From Pseudacidovorax intermedius (lineage in GTDB: Bacteria > Pseudomonadota > Gammaproteobacteria > Burkholderiales > Burkholderiaceae_C): DNA of 64,000 nt. The stretch lies in the NCBI RefSeq assembly GCF_003350475.1, contig NZ_QQAV01000003.1:62001-126000 (forward strand), given 5' to 3'. Positions within the stretch are counted from its first letter, which is position 1, and each line of letters starts with the position of its first letter. The position numbers were made by a program, and so were the translations under genes. Below are positions 28,268 to 29,705 of this stretch, piece by piece. The notes beneath the pieces are model-generated. The model was not told where the DNA came from. It ran no database searches and saw only the letters and a list, made by a program, of their open reading frames with translations.

Positions 28268-28299
28268 TCGCCGCGCCCTCGGGCGCACGGGACATCCCC

Positions 28300-28329
28300 T
28301 GCAAAACGGCCCTATTGGGCCGTTTTGCA
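28300..28329 (+). terminator. Terminator after leuB, probably bidirectional
   Basis: TGCAAAACGGCCC (28300-28312), loop tatt, GGGCCGTTTTGCA (28317-28329): a 13-bp stem with four T in the distal arm, 32 bases after the leuB stop. It separates leuCDB from the asd leader region. Confidence 0.85.
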
Positions 28330-28366
28330 TGTAGGAGGATACCGATGCGCGCTACAATCGCTCTCC

Positions 28367-28468
28367 ATGTTTGTCGCCCGCCCGTTCGCCCTGAACACCG
28401 TGCCTGCCGCCCTGGCCAGCACCGCGCGCGCATCCATCACCAAAACCACGACGACCATTAAGGGCTGA
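28367..28468 (+). CDS. Candidate asd leader peptide rich in Thr, Ile and Lys
   Basis: A 33-codon ORF ending 106 bases before the asd ATG. Residues 24-32 read ITKTTTTIK: five Thr, two Ile and two Lys, all end products of the aspartate-semialdehyde pathway. It resembles the E. coli thr operon leader in character. A -10-like TACAAT at 28353-28358 would place transcription start within a few bases of this ATG, so the message may be almost leaderless; the -35 is poor. A competing ORF in another frame (ATG 28345, after a perfect AGGAGG at 28333-28338; 38 codons, ends at 28461) is His-rich and lacks biological sense for asd. The downstream RNA arms are described in the adjacent regulatory entry. Function is inferred, not shown. 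Confidence 0.55.
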
Positions 28469-28527
28469 CCCAGCCTGGTTCGTCGCGCGTGCCTTCCCCC
28501 TGGCCCCGGACGAGCCAGGCGGGCCAG
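28450..28527 (+). promoter_or_regulatory. Candidate attenuator with mutually exclusive hairpins before asd
   Basis: Four arms can be read. Arm 1, GACGACCA (28450-28457), overlaps the Thr codons and pairs with TGGTTCGTC (28476-28484) with one bulged base. Arm 2, CCTGGTTCGTC (28474-28484), pairs instead with arm 3, GACGAGCCAGG (28509-28519), over 11 bp with one G-U. The third alternative, CTGGCCC (28500-28506) with GGGCCAG (28521-28527), closes around arm 3 and excludes the 2:3 pairing. This is the usual design of amino-acid attenuators. The weak point is that no uninterrupted T-run follows; only tcttcttt at 28542-28549. Confidence 0.5.
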
Positions 28528-28574
28528 CCCCTTCGCCGCGGTCTTCTTTGTATGACTCTGAAAGGGCTTTTGAC

Positions 28575-29705
28575 ATGAGCAAGTTGGTAGGTTTGGTCGG
28601 CTGGCGCGGCATGGTCGGCTCGGTCCTGATGGACCGCATGGTGGCCGAGAACGATTTCGACCTGATCGAGCCGCTGTTCTTCTCCACCTCGAACGCCGGC
28701 GGCAAGGCGCCCGCCATGGCCAAGAACGAGACCACGCTGCAGGACGCCTTCGATATCGCGCAGCTCAAGCGCTGCGAGATCATCATCACGGCCCAGGGCG
28801 GCGACTACACCACCGAAGTCTTCCCCAAGCTGCGCGCCGCCGGCTGGAACGGCCACTGGATCGACGCCGCCTCCACCCTGCGCATGAAGGACGACGCCGT
28901 CATCGTGCTTGATCCGGTCAACATGCCGGTCATCAAGAACGCGCTGTCCGACGGTGGCCGCAACTGGATCGGCGGCAACTGCACCGTCAGCTGCATGCTG
29001 ATGGGCGTGGGCGCGCTCTACAAGGCCGGTTTGGTCGAGTGGATGAGCACGCAGACCTACCAGGCCGCATCGGGCGGCGGTGCGCAGCACATGCGCGAGC
29101 TGCTCACGCAGTACGGCACGCTCTACTCGGAAGTGAAGGCCCTGCTGGACGACCCCAAGAGCGCCATCCTCGAGATCGACCGCCAGGTCATCGCCAAGCA
29201 GCGCAGCCTGTCGGGCGAAGAGACGGCCAACTTCGGCGTGCCCCTGGGCGGCTCGCTGATCCCCTGGATCGACAAGGACCTGGGCAACGGCATGTCCAAG
29301 GAAGAATGGAAGGGCATGGCCGAGACGAACAAGATCCTCGGCCAGGGCGAGGGCTTCGGCAGCCCCGCCGTGCCGGTCGACGGCTTCTGCGTGCGCGTGG
29401 GCGCCATGCGCTGCCACAGCCAGGCGCTGACCTTCAAGCTCAAGAAGGACGTGCCGCTGGCCGACATCGAGGCCATGATCGCTGCCGACAACGCCTGGGT
29501 GAAGGTGGTGCCCAACACGCGCGAAGCCACCCTCAAGGACCTGACGCCCGTGGCCGTGACCGGCACCATGACGATCCCGGTCGGCCGGCTGCGCAAGATG
29601 GCCATGGGGCCCGAGTACCTGGGCGCCTTTACCATCGGCGACCAGCTGCTCTGGGGCGCGGCGGAACCGTTGCGCCGCATGCTGCGCATCCTGCTGGACG
29701 CTTAA
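28575..29705 (+). CDS. asd: Aspartate-semialdehyde dehydrogenase
   Basis: 376-residue NADPH-dependent enzyme that reduces aspartyl phosphate to aspartate semialdehyde, the branch point to Lys, Thr, Met and Ile and to diaminopimelate for the cell wall. The N-terminal [22 protein letters not shown] is the NADP-binding motif, the catalytic Cys136 is in [13 protein letters not shown], and the family signatures [16 protein letters not shown] and [22 protein letters not shown] are intact. The ATG at 28575 is preceded by AAAGGG; the frame extends nine codons upstream to a TTG without a ribosome site. The upstream region carries the leader ORF and attenuator. Confidence 0.97.

Follow-up and report, generated by a model that had tools for sequence, protein, structure and literature searches.

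How is asd controlled in Pseudacidovorax intermedius? The window, i.e. the whole stretch of 64,000 nucleotides analysed here (contig NZ_QQAV01000003.1), holds at 28575–29705 a gene that we take, by sequence recognition, to be asd, encoding aspartate-semialdehyde dehydrogenase. An earlier sequence-only reading had proposed that the region just upstream is an attenuator through which asd is tuned by the supply of its own end products. Comparison with relatives leads to much the same answer: a ribosome-mediated attenuation leader very likely sets asd expression in response to the availability of the amino acids whose synthesis passes through Asd, namely Thr, Ile, Lys and Met.

A leader ORF with Thr, Ile and Lys codons

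All features described here lie on the forward strand. Translation bears out the 33-codon ORF at 28367–28468 that had been read from the letters, with ITKTTTTIK as its residues 24–32. These sensor codons (28436–28462) retain their Thr/Ile/Lys(/Met) composition across relatives. The box TACAAT (28353–28358), a −10 element, ends 8 nt before the leader ATG, and the Shine-Dalgarno sequence (SD) of asd, GAAAGGG, is placed at 28560–28566 by its sequence and by folds of the window. An inverted repeat containing TTTT, TGCAAAACGGCCC...GGGCCGTTTTGCA, is found at 28300–28329, between leuB and the leader ORF; because it separates the two, the leader ORF is probably on its own transcript. The repeat is perfect and, with its T run, is probably the leuB terminator.

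A second ORF in another frame (28345–28461) had been regarded as a competitor with the better ribosome site. Its start lies upstream of the conserved −10 box, so that the ORF should be absent from the transcript, and we rejected it. The suspicion that the leader ATG is nearly leaderless fared better. Among 92 distinct leaders encoded as separate ORFs, a −10-like hexamer ends 6–9 nt before the ATG in 86 and TACAAT is the best such hexamer in 77; the hexamer was picked as the best TANNNT within 18 nt, with no control set, so that the method itself somewhat favours these positions. Judging from translation, conservation and the position of the −10 box, the separate leader ORFs are probably leaderless, with transcription starting at or beside the leader ATG. 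Such a start would answer the open problem of the leader's ribosome site. A precedent for a leaderless attenuator ORF is trpL of Sinorhizobium meliloti, as described in passages of PMC7298713.

Conservation across the family

We fetched 110 asd loci by protein (80 loci and 30 from whole genomes, the window's own among these). An ORF ending like TKTTTTIKG* and a conserved RNA precede asd in 104 of them: the stop codon of the Thr/Ile/Lys-rich frame lies 72–208 nt before asd and is followed by the same kind of RNA. These loci are best protein or model matches rather than a random sample and are not all independent (L003 and L088 denote one place, and L081 is the window's own locus); for L038 and L042 the survey of the leader frame used a wrongly placed asd start. 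Six loci were not counted as positive (L034, L058, L061, L076, L080 and L105). L058 has only 40 nt of upstream sequence and thus provides no evidence of absence, while the element is absent at asd in the other five, all of which belong to the family.

A covariance model of tail and RNA, R1 (86 positions, 12 pairs, built from 48 sequences), matches 314 of the 399 genomes drawn across the family, mostly once per genome; the position before asd was checked at the loci read, a subset of the 314. The matches span 121 of 141 genera and include 286 of the 350 good-quality family genomes. In a draw of nearest relatives R1 matches 33 of 36 family genomes at E ≤ 4e−8; the three misses include one genome that is 65% complete and has no asd match, and G031, which keeps a degenerate LeuB tail. 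An order-wide draw gave 20 matches in 399 genomes. Twelve are family members (E ≤ 4e−12) and the other eight are weak (E ≥ 5e−5), one of which, in G319, precedes asd with the same kind of leader. Two of the weak matches outside asd, L143 and L151, were inspected individually and dismissed as chance matches, each lying away from asd inside an ORF (presumably aroB and an ABC permease gene, respectively).

The sensor occurs in two forms. Among 170 distinct upstream regions, outgroups included, a strong sensor is the C-terminal tail of LeuB in 46 and a separate ORF in 72, four of these separate ORFs belonging to other families; in 25 regions the stretch showed no leuB. Within the family, about a third of the sampled upstream regions have the LeuB-tail form. 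Translation of the asd leader, whether an ORF with Thr/Ile/Lys codons or a LeuB tail, probably reports amino acid supply to asd.

Two mutually exclusive helices share one arm

The RNA downstream of the sensor codons contains three arms, each delineated by swap test and covariation: A, GCCTGGTTCGTC (28473–28484); B, CCTGGC (28499–28504); and C, GACGAGCCAGGC (28509–28520). Arm A is one base longer than the second arm of the sequence-only reading, whose 11-bp pairing (28474–28484 with 28509–28519, one G-U) proved to be conserved and covarying in relatives. The conserved competitor of this helix is CCTGGC (28499–28504) with GCCAGG (28514–28519), i.e. arm B competes with A for C. The helices A:C and B:C are mutually exclusive, as both use arm C and both covary with it, and they are found just after the sensor codons, where an attenuator would have them. 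The competitor suggested originally, an outer hairpin CTGGCCC/GGGCCAG (28500–28506/28521–28527), is present in the window but not conserved: only 10 of 139 loci have a 7-bp equivalent enclosing C, and we rejected it as the alternative structure. Likewise, the pairing of the Thr codons (28450–28457) with 28476–28484 exists, with one bulged base, but does not covary within groups (0/500 swaps as good for all sequences, but 82/500 for separate leaders and 285/500 for LeuB tails).

The segment 28459–28531 folds at −50.8 kcal/mol, compared with a mean of −29.9 for shuffled sequences (z = −6.5, 0/200 shuffles), and the whole of 28345–28574 has z = −2.3 (3/200 shuffles as good). Since the A arms differ in length, a MAFFT alignment with RNAalifold missed the arms, a hairpin across the stop codon being the sole structure found, and we therefore used an anchored, alignment-free swap test, which left out L141 (no C anchor), L126, L144, L165 and L166 (other families) and L061. 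Over 114 distinct combinations, the mean energy of A:C duplexes is −21.9 kcal/mol with the cognate partner and −20.0 with a swapped one, and that of B:C duplexes −13.9 and −13.0; in both cases 0/500 swaps were as good. The control pairings A:B, C:SD, A:SD and leader end:SD were unremarkable (341, 367, 427 and 67 of 500, respectively).

A covariance alignment gave a concordant picture. It was fitted to A:C, used 100 loci and matched 95 (no match: L034, L061, L076, L080, L105), and its shuffles keep the relatedness of the sequences. Cells changed on both sides number 20 for A:C and 26 for B:C, against 7.9 and 7.5 after shuffling; for both helices, paired cells, double-changed cells and the covariation score were each reached in 0/500 shuffles. 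Two measures did not rise above shuffles, namely further pair types in A:C (475/500) and pairs changed on both sides in B:C (313/500). Where the ninth position of C is A (arm C GCCGG changed to GCCAGG), both A and B have U in 13 of 14 distinct combinations. Such a three-way change is the trace that a two-helix switch should leave. Thus, the check that had been proposed for Comamonadaceae came out positive for the frame as well as for the arms, and together they support the interpretation of the element as a putative asd attenuator tuned by end products.

The hairpin across the stop codon (28462–28476) pairs GGGCTG (28462–28467) with CAGCCT (28471–28476). In the alignment 90.5% of its cells are paired and 17 are changed on both sides (4/500 shuffles reach this), and it covaries with the final sense codon, which is GGC (Gly) or AGC (Ser); its swap test is not significant (126/500). 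Pairing of the leader end with the A–B loop is weak (22/500, or 250/500 with other boundaries). In four LeuB-tail genomes (L046, L071, L014 and L096, i.e. Ideonella, Rubrivivax, Aquabacterium and a similar genome) arm B, GGACCCC, matches a downstream GGGGTCC, which makes an extra alternative helix.

Taken together, these data suggest the following scenario. Transcription would begin at the leader ATG or immediately beside it. With an ample supply of charged tRNAs, the ribosome would reach the stop codon and cover the leader end and arm A, B:C would form and asd would be kept low. When Thr, Ile or Lys is short, the ribosome would stall on the sensor codons and leave arm A free, so that A:C would form, exclude B:C and allow asd to be expressed.

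Output of the switch

While the sensor and the switch are well supported by the comparisons above, any assignment of their output is more tentative. For the window we favour a translational output, with sequestration of the SD as the clearest prediction of the folds. With A available (28463–28595), A:C pairs and the leader end pairs with an anti-SD, AGCCCCTTCG (28526–28535), with z = −1.99 (8/200 shuffles as good). Masking A (28481–28595) gives a fold in which B:C is formed and the asd SD is taken up by AGCCC.UUCG; the stability of this fold does not exceed that of shuffles (z = +1.57, 191/200 fold as well). The leader end and the asd SD have AAGGGCT in common. Accordingly, in the window the anti-SD would sequester the asd SD when A is masked, and the leader end, GGGCTG, would capture the anti-SD when A is free.

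In relatives, in analyses that left out long intergenic regions, masking A lowers predicted SD access in five of seven members of the window's clade and raises it in none, and for other separate leaders the figures are 37 down and 7 up of 78. The latter effect is not specific to the cognate sequence, as a swapped SD gives a similar drop (33 down, 5 up of 78). In LeuB-tail genomes masking A leaves predicted access unchanged (6 down, 8 up of 45). The A–B loop has at least five contiguous bases complementary to the SD in 106 of 139 loci, compared with ~27% of shuffled loops, and its pairing with the cognate SD is better than that with swapped ones (2/500 as good).

The most serious alternative, possible but in our estimate clearly the less probable, retains the sensor and takes intrinsic termination of transcription, at a hairpin and U-tract before the SD, as the output. 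A U-tract precedes the SD in 57 of 77 and 24 of 43 sequences, against 4.9 and 2.5 expected, a roughly tenfold enrichment. One scan lists strict terminator-like hairpins in 54 of 132 sequences, the long intergenic regions again being left out; the window is included, with a hairpin at 28502–28543 followed by TTCTTTGT. As this hairpin overlaps arm C, A:C would compete with it. A second scan finds no terminator in the window. The lack of a clean T run, which had been noted as a difficulty, is therefore only part of the picture: it agrees with this second scan, but not with the U-tracts of relatives or with the hairpin listed by the first. The D arms, examined with the same exclusion of long intergenic regions, also speak both ways. 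The D5:D3 hairpin around the U-tract pairs better as cognate than swapped (0/500 overall, 0/500 in separate leaders, 6/500 in LeuB tails), but D has no partner among A, B, C and the B:C loop that is supported in both groups: C:D reaches 96/500 and A:D 30/500 overall, loop:D 4/500 overall but 91/500 and 415/500 within groups, and B:D is supported only in LeuB tails (2/500, versus 497/500 in separate leaders). Termination would fit the LeuB-tail genomes, which have no predicted SD switch. Against it, 13 leaders of another family, f32, have no U-run between hairpin and asd when read by eye. Sequestration of the SD thus remains the favoured output for the window, whereas other lineages may use transcription termination instead.

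Alternatively, termination might depend on Rho and take place in the C-rich stretch between the leader stop codon and arm C, where a stalled ribosome together with A:C would block it. The stretch is indeed rich in C and poor in G (medians over 98 distinct sequences: 0.47 for C and 0.27 for G), and such an output would suit the lineages lacking a U-tract as well. The pairing arms would by themselves be expected to make the stretch C-rich, however, and we consider Rho an unlikely answer.

Amino acid composition of the tails

Asn, Ser (AGY) and Arg (AGR) share the ANN codons with Thr, Ile, Met and Lys, and a fair test of composition is therefore one within ANN codons. Thr, Ile, Lys and Met account for 925 of the 936 ANN codons counted, and Asn for three. 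By group, the four amino acids take 271 of 272 in LeuB tails, 469 of 476 in separate leaders and 185 of 188 in the leaders of families f32 and f14 (16 leaders, last 15 codons, near-copies kept), with zero, three and zero Asn codons, respectively. Asn is made from aspartate, but not through Asd. Its near absence suggests that selection acts on the amino acids read and not on A-rich DNA. At positions −10 to −2 Thr, Ile, Lys and Met make up 84% of residues in 36 distinct LeuB tails and 90% in 58 distinct separate leaders, whereas frames +1 and +2 of the tails yield 2–12%. Met is present in some lineages, as in AITMTKTIKG, AITTMTKTIKS and TAITTTKTMKG. Composition and conservation thus point to a short upstream ORF with codons for the end products of the pathway that it would regulate, as expected of an attenuator.

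The core AAA ACC ACG ACC ATT AAG GGC is nearly fixed in separate leaders, synonymous sites included, which points to an added constraint on the RNA. The same fixation bears on another reading, in which the nascent peptide itself, as in SecM or TnaC, would stall the ribosome without any hunger for codons. This would explain why KTTTIKG is nearly invariant among the 60 distinct leaders of exactly 33 codons, but conservation at synonymous sites is what a constraint on RNA would give, and LeuB tails and the leaders of other families vary the order of Thr, Ile, Lys and Met while keeping the composition; we regard arrest by the peptide as quite improbable. That the ORF is fortuitous, and the region merely a promoter with a 5′ UTR, is hardly credible: codon-position differences in codons 2–22 show no clear coding constraint, but all 92 separate leaders of 32–38 codons have an ATG that follows closely on a −10 box and shares the frame of the tail, LeuB proteins elsewhere carry a tail of this kind as an in-frame fusion, and Asn hardly occurs among the ANN codons.

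Relation to known attenuators

One of the closest known systems is thrL of E. coli, whose leader peptide has many Thr and Ile codons and precedes genes of the aspartate family. The asd leader resembles it in placing Thr and Ile codons ahead of an aspartate-family gene, but differs in that asd rather than thrABC would be controlled, that Lys and sometimes Met codons are added, and that A:C and B:C share their 3′ arm. With asd instead of a thrA-type gene downstream, and with conserved Lys codons in addition to Thr and Ile, it does not qualify as a leader of the thrL type. Eight ACC codons are given for the thr leader in a part of PMC1183508.

Passages of PMC7298713 describe S. meliloti trpL as a leader ORF at the 5′ end of its RNA that attenuates a biosynthetic gene, with a terminator as output; the asd leader is similar in having a probably leaderless ORF and putative attenuation of a biosynthetic gene, for another amino acid and another gene. 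In Corynebacterium, ilvB-II has a conserved RNA motif, an upstream ORF rich in several end products of the pathway and a strong terminator stem (passages of PMC10272879). Several end products in the ORF and a conserved RNA motif are shared with the asd leader; unlike in the latter, the pathway is that of branched-chain amino acids, and a fusion to an upstream enzyme is not mentioned in these passages. The asd leader is predicted to work like ribosome-mediated attenuation of the thr and trp type.

The Rfam asd motif RF01732, another candidate RNA named after asd, is listed for Lactobacillales in a part of PMC2864571, that is, for a different order of bacteria, and has no match here. No Rfam covariance model reaches its gathering score in the window or in L016, L017, L051, L073 and L096; at E ≤ 1 the region 28280–28640 has only two sub-threshold matches, mir-1915 and SpF51. 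By word search, asd, aspartate and threonine are absent from the main text of an attenuator survey (PMC2965389), and the literature searched, with most subscription journals outside its scope, contained no report of an asd leader. If the proposal is correct, Burkholderiales have, where the aspartate pathway branches, a sensor for several amino acids, and its variants (Thr/Ile/Lys, with Met in some) form a natural series for measuring which codons set sensitivity.

Leaders in other families

We drew 24 other families of the order, three of which had no good asd match. With one genome from each of the remaining 21, only f14 had such a leader within ~300 nt of asd. The leader is present in all three f14 genomes and in 13 of 30 f32 loci read (38 of the 41 genomes drawn have asd); R1 gives only weak matches at asd in f32, in 7 of the 41 genomes (E = 2.5e−4 to 0.055). 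Peptides and RNAs in both families are unlike those of the window (for instance ...VITKTITTKTIIKR*, ...TATTIKTITKTIP*, ...KRTTTIITKTVMKG*), and the codons are again mainly those of Thr, Ile and Lys. When read by eye, the 13 f32 leaders have an TGTANANT-like box ending 6–8 nt before the ATG; in the f14 leader L164 an SD-like AGGAAG stands in place of the −10-like box.

In f32, a sensor of the same type appears to be joined to an RNA of different construction. In L197, L198, L200, L202–L208, L211, L212 and L215 an CGTCGTGCCCG-like stretch follows the leader stop codon, and a hairpin of 8–9 bp, of the CTTCCCCGC/GCGGGGAAG type, lies ~20 nt before the asd ATG with no U-run after it.

The sensor as a tail of LeuB

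LeuB proteins with the tail have 10–21 residues after the MG.AV motif, compared with 4–6 in 89 of 96 other LeuBs (the printed tail-length counts included the stop codon). Ribosomes finishing LeuB, an enzyme of the leucine pathway, would thus gauge the availability of the four amino acids derived through Asd and set asd. On balance we incline to the view that the last codons of LeuB are an attenuator of asd, the sensor existing both as a tail and as a leaderless ORF and being kept where asd seems to have been replaced. If so, the C-terminal codons of an enzyme would, in the LeuB-tail form, regulate a gene of a different pathway. Control of a gene's translation by the end of the protein encoded upstream is a feature of SecM and similar C-terminal regulatory peptides, SecM acting through peptide arrest. 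Here, in contrast, a metabolic enzyme is the carrier, and it is probably codon hunger that provides the signal.

A quick tree of asd (LG+G4) is poorly resolved and needs 17 changes among tail, separate ORF and none; its starred branches force only two to three changes per label, so that the number of switches between the forms is not fixed.

In 13 full-length cases asd is only 67–71% identical to that of the window, the median for the others being 90%. The low-identity loci are L137, L140, L170, L171, L174, L177–L179, L182, L184, L187, L190 and L191, and also L111–L113 and L115. Where measured, their LeuB is 86–91% identical, against a median of 87.6% for the others. It seems, judging from these identities, that the asd coding sequence was replaced beneath a retained leader in these loci. 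The asd of two public MAGs labelled Akkermansia and Singulisphaera (L012 and L030) groups with Limnohabitans-like Comamonadaceae, and these records look mislabelled.
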